DNA of 53,624 nucleotides from a virus. The notes below the pieces were generated by a model. That model ran no database searches. It saw only the letters and a program-made list of their open reading frames with translations, and had not been told where the DNA came from. This document shows, piece after piece, positions 17,639 through 48,478 of the stretch. How positions within the stretch are numbered: the stretch's first letter is position 1; each line of letters starts with the position of its first letter. The position numbers and the translations under genes were made by a program. The DNA lies in IMG/VR virus record IMGVR_UViG_3300048597_000653, positions 1 to 53,624 of that record; one strand, written 5' to 3'.

Positions 17639-18354
17639 TCAGTCCCAAAGCAGCGATGATTTCTACGGGCGTCATTGTTGGAGTGATGTGGCTCATGCTC
17701 GCCTCAAAAATCGATTCCGCTCCGCGGGATCGCACGTCACGAGAGGAGCCCGTGTTCGAGGAACAGACGCACGACAGCACGCTCACTATCATTCTAGATT
17801 TATCGACTTCATGTGAGCAATTGATGTCTCCTGACGGACAGGGATATGAGTTGATGCTCAAGCTGATCGATCGCTACTTCCGCAGCCGACTCGGCACGGG
17901 CGATCAGTTGATTTTGGCGAAGATTTGTGGCAATGACCGCGCGCTCCTCTGGGAAGGCACCCCCTTGGAATTGCGACGGCGGTTTCGCTCGGCATCGTCA
18001 TTCAGGCAGTTCCTACTGGACCATGCCGATCCAAATGGATCGCGTGTATACGCCGGAGTAACGCGCGCCGTCGAGTACGCTCTTGCCCGCCAAGGTAAAA
18101 GTGCCACAGAAGCGAAGAACGCCTGCTTGATTCTGTCGGACTTCGTCGAAAACGATCCGACGCAAAAAGGCTCGGCCGGCAAGATGTTCGAGACGCTGGC
18201 CAAGTACAGCGAAGCGGGGGGCGCAATCGGCTTCTATTTTGTGGACCAGGCCATTTGCCCGTACCTCGAAAAACACCTGGCCGAACACGGCATCAAGAAC
18301 TTCTGCGTTCAGTCGGAAGTCGTCGCTTCGCCCGTTCTTCCCAATCTCGATTAA
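17635..18354 (+). CDS. Membrane-anchored vWA-like protein, 239 aa
   Basis: The ATG at 17635 overlaps the preceding stop (ATGA). One N-terminal transmembrane helix (about residues 7-24) is followed by a von Willebrand A-like domain: TIILDLSTS carries the MIDAS DxSxS (D55, S57, S59), and a later CLILSDFVEND may supply the other metal contact. The predicted domain lies on one side of the membrane as an interaction module. It is flanked by a polytopic membrane protein and a ParB-like gene within the transfer operon. The vWA call is from motif and layout; the partner is unknown. Confidence 0.65.
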   Translation: MISPKAAMISTGVIVGVMWLMLASKIDSAPRDRTSREEPVFEEQTHDSTLTIILDLSTSCEQLMSPDGQGYELMLKLIDRYFRSRLGTGDQLILAKICGNDRALLWEGTPLELRRRFRSASSFRQFLLDHADPNGSRVYAGVTRAVEYALARQGKSATEAKNACLILSDFVENDPTQKGSAGKMFETLAKYSEAGGAIGFYFVDQAICPYLEKHLAEHGIKNFCVQSEVVASPVLPNLD

Positions 18355-18373
18355 CTCCTCTTGGAGATTCGAC

Positions 18374-19177
18374 ATGCTCGTTAAACAGATTCCTTTGGCG
18401 CTGGTGAGACGTAATAACATCCGCACCAAGCGCGATGCCCAAAAACTTGCCAACCTGAAACAGTCGATTGCTACCCTTGGCCAGCTATATCCGATCCTGG
18501 TGTTTGCCCTGCATGGCCTGTTTGAGGTGATCGACGGCCATGGCCGGGTGGAGGCATGTGAAGAACTGGGAATGGAGACCATTGCCGCCCTGGTGCAGGA
18601 GGGCCCCACGAGCGAGGACCACCATCTGCACAAGGCCTTGGTCAGCAATGTGCAGCGAGAGGGCCTTTCGCCGGTCGATATGGCCAAGGCCACCTCGCGT
18701 CTGATGGAGCTCAATAGCTGGAACGCTTCCCAAGTTGCTCAGCAGTTGGGTTTGTCGGTCTCGGCCATTACGAAATCTTTGTCCATTTTGAAACTGCCGG
18801 CCGAAATCGTTGAGCAGATCGAGTCGCGAAAGATTCTCGCCTCTGCCGCCTATGAGCTTTCGCGCATCACCGATCCGCAAAAACAGGCCGAATTGGCAAA
18901 GCGCTTGGCCTGCGGTCAGCTCACCCGTGATGGTTTAGCGCAGAAGCGACAACGTGCAACCTCTTCGCGCCAAGCGACGAAAGCCAGTGGTAAGCGGGCC
19001 GTCGTTTACCTGACGCCGGGCTCCACGCTCACGCTTTCCGGTAAGTCCTTGGATTTCGAGAACTTCATCACGGCCTGCGAGATAGCCGCCGCGCAAGCCA
19101 AGAAGGCCCGCCAGCAAAAGCTCTCGTTTGCAACATTTCTGCTGGCCACACGCGATCAGGCTGTCGCCGCCCCATAA
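18374..19177 (+). CDS. ParB-like DNA-binding protein
   Basis: A 267-residue ParB/Spo0J-family protein. The N-terminal ParB domain has LANLKQSIATLGQLYPILV and the VIDGHGRVEACEELG phosphoesterase-like signature. A helix-turn-helix follows (NASQVAQQLGLSVSAITKSL). The start at 18374 has TTGGAGA upstream. No ParA-type ATPase is adjacent, so it may serve as a transcriptional or transfer-related ParB relative rather than a full partition pair. It sits directly before the coupling-protein gene. Confidence 0.85.
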   Translation: MLVKQIPLALVRRNNIRTKRDAQKLANLKQSIATLGQLYPILVFALHGLFEVIDGHGRVEACEELGMETIAALVQEGPTSEDHHLHKALVSNVQREGLSPVDMAKATSRLMELNSWNASQVAQQLGLSVSAITKSLSILKLPAEIVEQIESRKILASAAYELSRITDPQKQAELAKRLACGQLTRDGLAQKRQRATSSRQATKASGKRAVVYLTPGSTLTLSGKSLDFENFITACEIAAAQAKKARQQKLSFATFLLATRDQAVAAP

Positions 19178-24421: not shown

Positions 24422-24448
24422 TTGCATTTCACCATCATTGACCTATGG
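24422..24448 (+). promoter_or_regulatory. Shared box, copy a
   Basis: Contains CACCATCATTGAC at 24430-24442 followed by CTATGG, just after the sigma-factor stop and 41 bases before the next start. TTGCAT at 24423 and TATGGT at 24444 are 15 bases apart and could act as -35 and -10. One of five copies of this box in the window. Confidence 0.55.
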
Positions 24449-31706: not shown

Positions 31707-31731
31707 CATTGCACCATCATTGACGTACTGT
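31703..31731 (+). promoter_or_regulatory. Shared box, copy b, with sigma-70-like promoter
   Basis: TTGACA (31703-31708), 17-base spacer, TACTGT (31726-31731). The spacer contains CACCATCATTGAC (31712-31724), identical to copies a and c. It lies 20 bases upstream of the membrane-protein start and overlaps the stop codon of the preceding gene. Conservation of the spacer points to a second protein, or a special sigma factor, reading it. Confidence 0.7.
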
Positions 31732-43030: not shown

Positions 43031-43117
43031 TTAGTAAGGTTGCCGCGGGGCAAGCACAGTCTGCCAGACGCTCGCAATCAGGATGAATCCGGCAAAGGCT
43101 GCTAGTTCGATGACCAT
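43031..43117 (-). CDS. Membrane microprotein, 28 aa, first gene of leftward array
   Basis: Found by translating the leader: ATG at 43117, stop at 43031, GGGGCAAG upstream. The product is essentially one hydrophobic helix (MVIELAAFAGFILIASVWQT). It starts about 20 bases after the -10 hexamer. The 12-base inverted repeat GGGGCAAGCACA (43047-43058) / TGTGCTTGCCCC (43118-43129) brackets it, so the ribosome-binding site can be sequestered by its own coding region. Confidence 0.55.
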   Translation of the reverse strand: MVIELAAFAGFILIASVWQTVLAPRQPY

Positions 43118-43139
43118 TGTGCTTGCCCCTTGGTTGTGC

Positions 43140-43170
43140 ATTATAAGATTGCATCACCATTGACCTAAGG
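43140..43170 (-). promoter_or_regulatory. Promoter of leftward array with shared box, copy d
   Basis: On the minus strand a perfect TATAAT (43145-43140) lies 23 bases before the first start codon. Directly upstream is a variant box: on the plus strand CATCACCATTGAC at 43152-43164, followed by CTAAGG. The box thus occupies the spacer/-35 zone. Confidence 0.65.
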
Positions 43171-43938
43171 CAAACAGAATTTAGCGGATCCGTAGTATTT
43201 ATTCCCGAATCCCACGATTGGTTGCACAGAATGTGGGAAATACCGCGCACGATGGGCGCCGGCCGACCGCGAGCGTGTCGCGTCTTGGTGCAGAGCGGGC
43301 GCAGAATGCTGCCTGATCGACGCGGTACGATGCTTTGCGTGTCGCGTCAGGCAGTGATTATCGACGCGACGAATGGCGAGAATTTGACGAGCCTAAGATT
43401 TAGAATCTGTCGCGTGCAAAATCTTGAGCAAGGCCGAGCCAACCGCGTCAATTACCGGATTGAGTAATGTCGCGTCGAAAAGAGTCATTTTTGTAAGGTG
43501 CAGAGCGGGTTGACGTTGCGTTGAAAAAGTTACTGAGTTACCCTGGTTACCGTTTGTTACTTCTCCTATGCATATTCTATTTACACTCACTCTCTACTTA
43601 CTTACTTACTAAATAACTATCTATATAGAAGAACAATAATAGAGTAATTGAGTCATTCTGTACGCGCAACGTGCATTGAATGCACGGCTTGCTGCATGTT
43701 ACCTTTCTGCAAATTGCGATACTACCGCGTCAAATTAGGTAATTGTCGCGTCAGACGTGGTTACAAGCTGGGAGGCAAGAACTGCCGAAACGGCAGACAT
43801 GACGCGGCAAGAAACCATATTTGGCAGTCAACCGCGTCAGACCACGACGCGACCCGCTCACCTGGTCGATGCTGTGCGTTGATCGTCGCGAATCAACGCA
43901 AATCGTGATGCACAAACAAGATGCAATCGTGCTCGTGT

Positions 43939-43962
43939 TATATTGCACCACCTTAGACGTCC
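43939..43962. promoter_or_regulatory. Shared box, copy e
   Basis: CACCACCTTAGAC at 43946-43958 preceded by TTG, the most diverged copy of the box. On the minus strand TATAAC lies next to it, in the same relative place as TATAAT beside copy d. It lies within the repeat-rich tract. Confidence 0.4.
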
Positions 43963-44149
43963 GTCGATGGTGACGCAACGTGATGGCAGACGCGGGGTTG
44001 TATCGTCTGGGCAGGTAACTTGCCGCGGGTGGAACGGGTGGGGTCAAATCCGCGGGTTGTGACCGGGATTGGCATGGCACGCCATTCGCAGCCCTTTCGA
44101 CGCTTGGGGCGCCGAAGCAAGAAGCAGTGACGCGTCATGCGGGCTTCTC

Positions 44150-44176
44150 GGCCGATCGCGGGGCTCGCGATCGGCC
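44150..44176. repeat. Perfect 11-bp inverted repeat
   Basis: GGCCGATCGCG, loop GGGCT, CGCGATCGGCC. There is no U-run on either side. It lies 13 bases after the TGACGCGTCA palindrome at 44128-44137. Could be a protein-binding or cruciform site of the candidate origin. Confidence 0.7.
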
Positions 44177-44578
44177 AAGCTCGAACTCGCGGGGCTCGCC
44201 GCCGGCCGACGCAAAGCACATCGACGCGTCATCAAGGCATCTCGCGACTGGCAGCGACAACGTCCGAACACAATCGCGATCGCCGGAGGCTTCGGATTTG
44301 CCACCGCCTGCGCGATAGATAGGTGCCCATCGTCAAATCACACCGGCCCATGACATATCGCAACAGAAGCGAACTGTGAGCATTTCAGCCAGGGTCACGC
44401 GGCAGGAGGGTCAAATCCGCCGGCCACAGGAATTCAATCAACTGCTTAACGCGTCAGAGCAATTCCGGCGCCGGCCGGCGGAGAGAGGCATTGACGCGTC
44501 AGTCTCCTGCCTTGAGAAGAGGTAAACACAGAGCGAATTCAACGACCAGATTCTATGTCGTAGCGGTCCCCAGGCAGA

Positions 44579-47357
44579 CTACTCCGGCGGTGACGTGTCG
44601 GACTGTTTTCGGCGACGAGCTTTGGGTAGGCCCGCCGTTATCGGTGCAGTCATCGTATCGTAGAGCCTGAACAAGAACTCCATACGTTGTAAATCATTCG
44701 CAAAGGGTTGAGAGCGATAGCACTTATCGACCACTTTGTCGAGTTCCGCGTGAGCTTTGGAAAGGTTCCTTGGCATCGTCACCGGATCATACAAATCCGC
44801 CAAGGAACTATCAGGCCATGCTTGTCGGGCATCGAGCACAAGCTGCGCCTTTGCTTCGACTGTCTCTCGGGCTTTTTTCGTTGCCGTATCAGGCCACGGA
44901 AAGTTGTTGTAGACAAGTGTGCCTGAGTAGCGATAACGCGATTCCAGTCGTCCCGCAATTTGCCGTACCCAGGCCATGTGCATAGCAGAGGAGAGGATTC
45001 CAAAATGAAAGAGCGTTGCTTCTTCCACAACAAATACGAGATCGCTAACCAGCGTTTCCGGTGACATGAAGCCAATGGGAATGTACAGCCGTCGCTCGGA
45101 TGAGACCTTGGGAATCAACAAGAATTCGCGCGTTGGCATTTTCTCGACATGAAAGCGGGTGGGCGTCTTCGCGATTTTTTGTGTGGGAATACTCTTACTG
45201 GCTGCTCTGAACTTGCGGACGGCCTCCACTCGTTTGACAGCCTCAGGCATCGCCTTGAGTTCGTTGGGGGGGACAATCCCCGAGCCAGAGGCACCAACGC
45301 TTTTTGCCGTTGATGAACTCGTCCGATCCAACCCATTGTCGGAACCATTTTTTCGCCTTGGGCTCTTGCTTGAGGAACTGGTCCATCTCCTCTTCCAAGA
45401 ACAAATAATTGCCGTCGTCGATGGGCTTATTACCGATCGCGATTTTCGGCACGGCACAAACAGGCGTCTCTCTGTTGACAATGAGCGTATCGGGGCCTTC
45501 AACGAGGTAGGGGCTGATGTTCTTGGCGTCAATTACCGTTGGTGTGTTCGGATCAGATTCGTAGTCATAGAGTCGTTTTTTCCCAGCGACGTTTTCGCCG
45601 AAACCGATGATGACTACATGGACGTGAGCTTTGCCTCTCGCCTCGCTTTCCCAGGCAAAGGTGCGGTGCGCGAAGCGAATTTGCAGTCCGCGTTTAAGCA
45701 AGTCCGCCCAAAGCGTTCCAACTTGCTCGCCCTGGGTAATAGAGTTCGTGGAAACGAAGCCAACCGATATGTTGGTGCCGCGAATAAAACCCGCCGCCTG
45801 AAAGTACCATCCGGTCACATAGTCGAGCAGGCCCACATTCTTGACTGTCGAGGCAACAGTTTTCATGTCCGAACGTTGTGACTCCGACTGGTATTTCGAC
45901 CCAACGAATGGAGGGTTGCCCAAAACGTAGCTGCACTCTTCTGGGGCGACGATCGTCCGCCAATCGAGTCGGAGTGCGTTACCCTGAACGATCTTGGCAC
46001 TTTTTCGGAGCGGCAGCCGCACGAAATATTGGCCGAAAGCTTCCGAGACCCGGAGGTTCATTTGATGATCCATGAGCCACATCGCCACTTCGGCAATGCG
46101 AACCGGAAACTCGTTGATTTCAACGCCAATAAAGGCATCGACGTCCACCCTGGCCATGTGCGAGATATCCAGGGTCAACTGACGATCGCCCTCCTGTAGT
46201 TGCAGCAGGACATCGAGTTCAAGGAGTCGTAGCTCGCGGTAGGTGACAACCAAAAAGTTCCCACAGCCACAAGCCGGGTCAAAAAATCGGAGCTTTGCTA
46301 AGCGATCATGGAAGCGCCGTAGGTCAGGTTTGCTTTTCTTGATCCGCTCGAACTCGGCACGCAAATCGTCGAGGAAAAGAGAGCGTACAACCTTCATAAT
46401 GTCGCGTTCGCTCGTGTAGTGTGCTCCGACTTGACGCCGTTCGCGTGGCTCAATCACTGACTGAAAGAGTGAGCCGAAAATTGCTGGCGAGATACGGCTC
46501 CAATCAAAGCGGCAGCAACTCAGGAGAGCCTCGCGGGTTGATCGCGTGAACTCGACGAACTCAAGGTGTTCGGCAAACAAGTCACCATTGACGTAGGGGA
46601 GACTGGCTAAGAGTTCGTCGAGATTCCTCTGTCGGTGGTCCGTCGGTGTATTAAGGACGGAGAAAATGCGTGCCAGGTGTGCTCCTAAGTCGGAGCCGTC
46701 CGCGTTGGTTCGCTCTTCAACGAACTGGGTAAACGCGTTTCGGTCAAAGATTCCGTTGTCTTCGGCGAAGAGACAAAACAACACGCGAACGAGGAATCGT
46801 TCTAACTGGTGACCGGCGTAGCCGCCGTCTTCCAAGGCATCGTGCAGTTCGCCCATTTTCTCAACGGCCTTGACGTTGATCGGATCCTCAACATCAAGGC
46901 GGTGCTGCTTATAGCCTGGGATGAAGGCAAAGACATGGACGTGCTTGTGCAACTCCTTGAGCGAGCATTCAAACGATTTACGCTCATCCAAGTCGTGAAG
47001 AGCCAAGGAAGCAAAATCGGAAAGGACAACGTACCGAGGAATATCGTCGTCACGACCAGCATCTTTTAGGCCTCGGATGTACGCCATCGCCTGGCTTTGT
47101 GCGACGTCCAGCGGCTTGCCCAAACTCTTGTGTTCGACGAGTAATGTCCCAGGCCAGAAGAGGTCAATGAAGCCCCAGGCACCAGAAAGTTTCTTTACCG
47201 GCTCTTCAAAACTGGCGACGGTCCGCCGGCGCACACCAAAAACCGCGAAGAACTCATCCCAAAAGCTTTTGGCTTCAGCGTGCTCTCTGGTTTCCGCCGC
47301 CCACTCTTTGGAAAAAGCAATGGCGTTCTGACGAATCTCGTTCCAAGATATGGGCAC
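44579..47357 (-). pseudogene. MmeI-like type IIG restriction-modification gene, frameshifted at a C7 run
   Basis: The first 704 codons (GTG at 47357 to 45243) and a second frame (to 44579) together form one protein of about 925 residues, the usual size for this family. The N-terminal nuclease motif has D65 and E75-x-K77 (LLVEHK). The methyltransferase domain has HYTSERD, FDPACGCGNF (about 359-368) and NPPF (480-483). The second frame continues with PNELKAMPEAVKRVEAVRKF and the target-recognition and C-terminal parts. The break lies in a run of seven C (minus strand; plus strand G7 at 45266-45272); six would restore the frame. This may be a phase-variable switch, a recent mutation or a sequencing error. 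If intact it would both cut and methylate DNA. Confidence 0.85.
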
Positions 47358-47560: not shown

Positions 47561-48478
47561 ATGCACGCACTGCTCGTCGCGGCCGCGCTGGGCGCGGTCT
47601 TCACACCGCTCGGAGAGTTCACCACGTTCCAGTCGTTCAGCGATCGGGTCTCCCTCTCGCCGGACGGCCACACCGCAGTCGGTTGGAGCGACACGCTAGG
47701 CGGACCGGAAGCCTTCATCTGGACCGCGGGAAGCGGGATGCAATCGCTGGGCGCCGGCCGAGCCCTGGCGGTGACCAACGGCGGGACCATGATCGTCGGC
47801 GATCGAGCGGGTGAGGCCTGGGAGTTCGTGGGCGGCACAGGCTACGGACCGGGGACCGCGCTGGCGACGGATGGGACCACAGTCGTCGGGACGTCCGGCG
47901 GCCAAGCGATGAACTTCACCACGGGCGAAGACCTGGGAATCGGCCAAGCGCTGGTGATCTTCGAGGGAACGATCTACGGTCAGTACGCTCCGCCGACTCC
48001 GCACCGGGCGTGGAACTACACCACCGGCCAGTCGCTGGGCGAGGGTTATCTCTACGATGTGAGCGATGCCGGGATCGCCGGAGCAACCGCGGGTGCTTAC
48101 GCCGCCAAGTATCCGACCATCCTCCCGCAACCGCCGGCCACCTTTGCATCCAACGCGTTTGCCATCTCGCGTGGCGGCCGGATGGTGGGTGCCAATATCA
48201 CGGGTCAAGGAATCTTCGCCGTGATCTGGGAGAACGACGGGACCGCGAGCTACCTGGCCGACTGGCTGCCCGCGGGGCTTGTCCCAACGGGCTGGATCTT
48301 GCGAGAGGCAACCGACATCTCGGATGACGGCCACAAAATTGCGGGCTTCGCGGAACGGCCAGATGGTGTCTACCAGAGCTTTGTGGTTGCGGTCCCAGAA
48401 CCCGCTACAATGACGTCATCCGTAATTGCGGTGATCGCCTTGTTCGCTGGACGGCGGAGAACACACAGTGAGCGTTAA
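47561..48478 (+). CDS. PEP-CTERM surface protein with repeat domain
   Basis: A 305-residue exported protein. The short N-terminal signal (MHALLVAAALGAVFTPLGEF) is followed by repeated beta units of the HAF type (SPDGHTAVGWS, TDGTTVVGTSGG, SRGGRMVGANIT, SDDGHKIAGFAE). The C-terminal sorting signal has VPEP (278-281), a hydrophobic helix and RRR. PEP-CTERM proteins are processed by exosortase and are frequent in Planctomycetota and other envelope-rich bacteria. A strong AAAGGAGG precedes the ATG. Surrounding gap sequences are rich in GCCGGC. Confidence 0.82.
   Translation: MHALLVAAALGAVFTPLGEFTTFQSFSDRVSLSPDGHTAVGWSDTLGGPEAFIWTAGSGMQSLGAGRALAVTNGGTMIVGDRAGEAWEFVGGTGYGPGTALATDGTTVVGTSGGQAMNFTTGEDLGIGQALVIFEGTIYGQYAPPTPHRAWNYTTGQSLGEGYLYDVSDAGIAGATAGAYAAKYPTILPQPPATFASNAFAISRGGRMVGANITGQGIFAVIWENDGTASYLADWLPAGLVPTGWILREATDISDDGHKIAGFAERPDGVYQSFVVAVPEPATMTSSVIAVIALFAGRRRTHSER

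Follow-up and report, generated by a model that had tools for sequence, protein, structure and literature searches.

What is the function of a 1.5-kb stretch of phage DNA that lacks genes but is crowded with short repeats around an AT-rich block? The tract in question lies in the window analyzed here, which covers bases 1 to 53,624 of a virus record of 117,624 bp (G000), and an initial annotation had likened it to a plasmid or phage origin or to a centromere-like partition site. Comparison with related phages supports the phage origin well and the partition site less so. We consider it probable that the tract is the replication origin, of the iteron type, of a temperate Planctomycetota phage, its origin activity being inferred from sequence features and their conservation.

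Architecture of the noncoding tract

A codon usage scan revealed no frame with coding character from about 43,050 to 44,570, which bears out the earlier description of a 1.4-kb noncoding tract. The hexamer CGCGTC, reported previously as more than ten repeats in both orientations, matches 19 times on the two strands from 43,279 to 44,500, with 54 matches in the entire window and 78 in the 117,624-bp record. It is the most clustered hexamer of the record (19 versus 0.71 expected; Poisson P = 6e-21), and in 2,000 shuffles that preserved the dinucleotides of the tract the count never exceeded 9. When the repeat was sought elsewhere on the replicon, any other 1.4 kb of the record contained at most about 3 copies, and nowhere within the record was it equally dense. 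Most CGCGTC sites are nonpalindromic. The palindromes noted on the right-hand side do exist, with perfect TGACGCGTCA only at 44,128 and 44,492 and GACGCGTC additionally at 44,223. The paired pattern CCGCGTCAA..GTCGCGTC was likewise recovered at 43,443-43,476 and 43,725-43,752, as was the triplet run of the AT-rich block (CTTACTTACTTACT, at about 43,597-43,610). Both longer direct repeats exist as well but are weak, one covering 40 nt at 73% and the other 18 nt at 89%.

Three features had been overlooked, namely, four GTTAC repeats, the lowest-GC status of the AT-rich block, and a conserved element, here called Block B (Table 1). With 28% GC against about 55%, the core has the AT richness of the unwinding element of an iteron-type theta origin. 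The four GTTAC repeats fall within 40 bp at the left edge of this core, an arrangement matched by 0 of 2,000 shuffles, and nowhere else in the record is GTTAC as dense over 300 bp. The window lacks a perfect TTATCCACA DnaA box, the record having one at 117,320, and boxes with one mismatch are absent from the tract. A GC-skew analysis, suggested earlier as a check, was run and proved uninformative, as the skew follows the coding strand.

Table 1. Positions of features in and around the tract (window coordinates)
Feature	Position	Strand	Details
Candidate replication origin tract	43,060..44,578	.	Noncoding, ~1.5 kb; no frame with coding score
TATAAT-like -10 of leftward small-gene cluster (43077 to 36426)	43140..43145	-	Read from sequence
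CACCATTGACC-type (CACCATCATTGACSTA) element at the tract's left edge, possible phage operator	43152..43167	+	Related copies at 24430, 31712, 31987; weak at 43946
Left CGCGTC cluster	43279..43476		43279+, 43319-, 43343+, 43363-, 43444+, 43471+; plus TGTCGCGT at 43409
Four GTTAC repeats, candidate iterons abutting the AT-rich core	43529..43560	+	43529, 43537, 43546, 43556; spacing 8/9/10 nt
AT-rich core, candidate DNA-unwinding element	43551..43650	.	28% GC; lowest-GC 100 bp of the record
Further GTTAC right of the core	43698..43764	+	43698, 43760; another at 44015 (-)
Middle CGCGTC cluster	43726..43994		43726+, 43747+, 43801-, 43833+, 43846-, 43989-
Block B, conserved ~110-bp element	44026..44140	-	TGMCGCGTCA...GAAAGGGC...GTGCC...GCAAATTTGACCCCACCC
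Right CGCGTC cluster	44129..44500		Palindromic pairs 44129/44131, 44223/44225, 44493/44495; single site 44450

The surroundings of the tract have features of their own. At 31712 and 31987, the CACCATCATTGACSTA element lies between TTGACA and TACNGT, like an operator in a promoter spacer. A leader of about 31 nt (TAACCGGACC..GACTAAGGGGCAAA) with a Shine-Dalgarno-like sequence precedes four small genes on the minus strand (38187, 39057, 39490, and 40528). To the right, positions 44579-47357 (-) carry an MmeI-like type IIL restriction-modification gene in two overlapping frames near 45,243-45,532, reflecting a frameshift or a sequencing error, and beside this system the gene at 47561-48478 (+) has a weak PEP-CTERM match (E = 0.002, below cut-off).

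The carrier phage and the tract in its relatives

The record represents a temperate phage whose family is uncultured; a relative is integrated in a Planctomycetota chromosome. Its part from 54 to 117.6 kb encodes a terminase, portal, P22-like coat, tape measure, primase-helicase, helicase, PolA, ligase, and integrase, and core genes are common to the relatives G001 (136.5 kb), G002 (81.8 kb), and G018, the last of which is a prophage occupying about 6.3-92 kb on a contig of 444 kb from a Planctomycetota MAG. Positions 1-23,500 of the window, with a TrwC-type relaxase-helicase, a T4CP-like ATPase, ParB, ArdC, and a DndB-like protein, have almost no counterpart in these relatives, and the first ~23 kb may come from the host or another element. 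An oriT for the TrwC relaxase was set aside as a reading of the tract, the relaxase belonging to this segment, 38 kb away.

In the relatives, too, a noncoding tract combines a conserved block with an AT-rich core, in line with a phage origin. By blastn, about 100 nt of the tract matched noncoding tracts of G001 (65%, E = 7e-9), G002 (71%, E = 2e-9), and L066 (73%, E = 3e-11), and an nhmmer profile of these four tracts independently found those of G018 (E = 1e-15) and L011 (E = 8e-6). The CGCGTC motif belongs to the conserved element, since the six-way alignment starts with TG(A/C)CGCGTCA; CGCGTCA-type 14-mers are conserved over the six tracts with scores of 60 and 59, compared to a null maximum of 57. 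Homologous tracts are thus recognizable in five relatives, and weaker ones occur in no fewer than four others (L074, L071, L075, and L076). The six-sequence profile alone gave E = 0.015 for L074 and 0.64 for L071, which joined the profile because an AT-rich core with repeats was seen in their tracts. The profiles extended in this way also find L076, L075, L078, and L081, all oriented alike and upstream of the recombinase, these hits leaning on weaker sequences and being less certain. Block matches in L170, L078, L081, and L160 were left out as too weak.

No other 100-bp segment of G000, G001, or G002 is as poor in GC as the core, which ranks second in this respect in the G018 prophage. Relative to Block B, its position is downstream in G000, G001, G002, L066, and G018 but upstream in L011, L071, L074, and L075. 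Core and block are kept while the flanking genes and their orientation vary. Repeats flanking the core were counted as (G/A)TTAC within 200 bp (observed versus expected) in nine tracts, six of which gave a strong signal (G000, 10 versus 0.5; G018, 8 versus 0.6; L074, 11 versus 0.4; L071, 5 versus 0.4; L011, 5 versus 0.6; L075, 6 versus 0.7) and three a weak one (G001, 2 versus 0.4; G002, 3 versus 0.45; L066, 3 versus 0.5). They occupy both sides of the core in G018, L074, and G000, with fewer right-hand copies in G000, and in G002 and L066 an inverted GATTACTT repeat spans the core instead. CGCGTC is enriched in the tracts of G000 (19 versus 0.6), L011 (7 versus 0.65), G018 (7 versus 2.1), and G002 and L066 (4 versus 1) but not in that of G001 (1 versus 0.7). 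The dominant repeat varies among relatives, being CGCGTC in G000, CACGAGC in G001, GACGTC in G002, and CCTGGTCG in L071, a difference that could reflect lineage-specific binding or neutral repeat expansion. The CACGAGC repeats of G001 (64248-67298; L045) span about 3 kb, well past the block and core.

Several simpler identities were set aside. The tract is not attP, because its G018 homolog (77.0-78.6 kb) lies deep within the prophage, with the tyrosine integrase at the other end; no exact repeats that could serve as att sites were found around the ends of G000 and G018. Nor is Block B a host REP or MITE repeat, since it occurs in only 1 of 294 sampled Planctomycetota genomes, and there solely in the G018 prophage. 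AAATTTGACCCCRCCC was unmatched in 149 genomes, a result that is uninformative alone as G018, whose block differs, was also unmatched. A structured RNA is unlikely because Block B folds weakly and covaries little, with compensation in 2 of 15 pairs, and the Rfam search returned nothing. The tract had no match in the plasmid and phage DNA collections.

A candidate initiator and a model for replication

The initial annotation found no known initiator nearby, which holds within the window, and looked for one among the many small proteins of unknown function. The complete record nonetheless encodes an SF3 primase-helicase at 88,846-91,629, about 44 kb from the tract, with a predicted C-terminal domain moderately similar to the origin-binding winged helix of phage P4; it is a better candidate than the small proteins and plausibly the initiator that had been overlooked. 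The protein matches the profiles DUF5906 (E = 2e-13) and TIGR01613 (P4 family; E = 7e-9), the latter with 35 bits against a curated cut-off of 108.7, and its homologs in G001, G002, and G018 give the same matches, again below the cut-off for the P4-family primase. Although the full-length structural model is poor (mean pLDDT of 56), it matches NrS-1, SaPI5 Rep, and D5 helicases. The C-terminal 138 residues modeled alone reached a pLDDT of 85-94 over fragment residues 40-110 and resemble winged helices, including the P4 origin-binding domain 1ka8 (Z of 5.6, 2.8 A over 71 residues). RFX domains score above 1ka8 (Z of 8.1 and 7.6), so this likeness speaks for the fold and not for the function. 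An HTH protein at 97,181-98,488 was set aside as initiator, its sequence looking like an HTH plus metallophosphatase.

In known PICI origins, two sets of iterons flank an AT-rich region (PMC6092414), and the P4 alpha protein binds repeats of its origin through a winged helix (PMC4234260). The reading of the tract as an origin follows from its resemblance to these phage-satellite origins, i.e., from the AT-rich core, the flanking repeats, the conserved noncoding unit, and an SF3 primase-helicase with a predicted winged helix (PMC6092414, PMC4234260). Like the PICI origins (Pri-Rep/ori and SaPI5-type Rep), the phage combines iterons flanking an AT-rich melting region with an SF3 primase-helicase in the same element, and the primase-helicase model matches SaPI5 Rep helicase structures. 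Unlike them, it is an autonomous tailed phage and not a satellite, its presumed initiator gene is distant, and its tract is longer, with an additional CGCGTCA array and Block B. With phage P4 (ori/crr and alpha), it shares a predicted 1ka8-like C-terminal winged helix and a P4-family primase-helicase profile match, found in four phages; here, however, the match is below the curated cut-off, whole-protein identity is low, and the likeness is at the protein level.

Upon prophage induction or infection, the SF3 primase-helicase would bind the short repeats beside the AT-rich core through its C-terminal winged helix, melt the core, and load itself as a hexameric helicase. It would then prime synthesis by the PolA-type polymerase of the phage. 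For binding of the initiator, the GTTAC/GGTAAC-type repeats next to the core are the better candidates. A second factor that would control firing, such as a regulator, an accessory initiator, or a ParB-family protein, would more likely bind at the CGCGTCA sites and Block B, which has no known role in an origin; the CGCGTCA array itself could belong to the initiator, a ParB-family protein, or a regulator.

Some observations count against an origin. Initiators of plasmids and satellites usually adjoin their origin, and the distance of about 44 kb to the candidate gene departs from this layout. The missing GC-skew signal, the turnover of repeats, the weak (G/A)TTAC signal in three tracts, the sub-cut-off TIGR01613 match, the 1ka8 match outscored by RFX, and the lack of a known origin role for Block B were counted on the same side.

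Alternative functions of the tract

The phage core encodes two ParB-family proteins (91,647-92,549 and 99,679-100,539), both above the Pfam cut-offs for ParB_N and HTH_ParB, and the second is kept in G001, G002, and G018. One way to accommodate them is a compound control site, in which a GTTAC-type iteron origin is joined to an array bound by a ParB-family protein without ParA, acting as a replication switch, and to the novel ~110-bp block; we regard this arrangement as conceivable, if rather unlikely. Alternatively, the CGCGTCA/TGACGCGTCA sites could form a centromere-like (parS) region, bound by either protein, that partitions an extrachromosomal prophage or organizes phage DNA. The many sites, a few of them perfectly palindromic, would suit this function; short direct repeats can serve as parS loci in phages, and mycobacteriophage parABS/repA loci offer a precedent with a phage-borne origin and ParB-family proteins in the phage (PMC7157519). 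In contrast to those loci, no RepA homolog was identified here and the G018 relative is integrated in the chromosome; moreover, no ParA ATPase (PF13614, PF01656) exceeded the cut-off in G000, G001, G002, or G029, records that may be incomplete, while 14 of 14 control genomes were positive. Partitioning also fits poorly with the prevalence of nonpalindromic sites and leaves unexplained an AT-rich core with repeats of its own. The ParB-like protein of the window (18,239-19,177), to which the initial annotation pointed, lies in the part not common to the relatives. Overall, a partition site seems unlikely.

It is more doubtful still that the tract is a regulatory region holding operators and promoters for the leftward small-gene cluster and its neighbors. 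The CACCATTGACC-type elements at its edge recur beside other phage genes, a TATAAT-like -10 is found at 43,140, and the reverse strand of Block B (44026-44140) reads as a sigma-54-like TGGCAC-N5-YYGC in most of the six sequences; yet the neighbors and their orientation change among relatives while core and block stay, and 1.2-1.6 kb of DNA that includes the lowest-GC segment of the genome exceeds what promoters need. Least probable of all is a res-type site for the small serine recombinase (55,933-56,859), with Block B supplying crossover and accessory subsites: resolvase sites are similar in size to the ~110-bp block and the recombinase gene directly abuts the tract in L066 and L011 and lies 0.8-4 kb away in L071, L074, L075, L076, and L148, but in G000, G001, and G002 it is 7-17 kb away with the block still within 0.8 kb of the core, Block B shows by eye no triple inverted-repeat arrangement, and such a site does not require an AT-rich core.

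An iteron-type origin of a temperate phage therefore remains our preferred reading. The category of site is known, and the phage family, the motif, and the block appear to be undescribed. No close relative was found among 50,697 deposited phage genomes, the best terminase match having about 27% identity, and the replication of this phage family is consequently undescribed. Model Planctomycetota are without a replicative plasmid (PMC11958385), and a compact phage origin together with its initiator would be a direct candidate from which to derive one.
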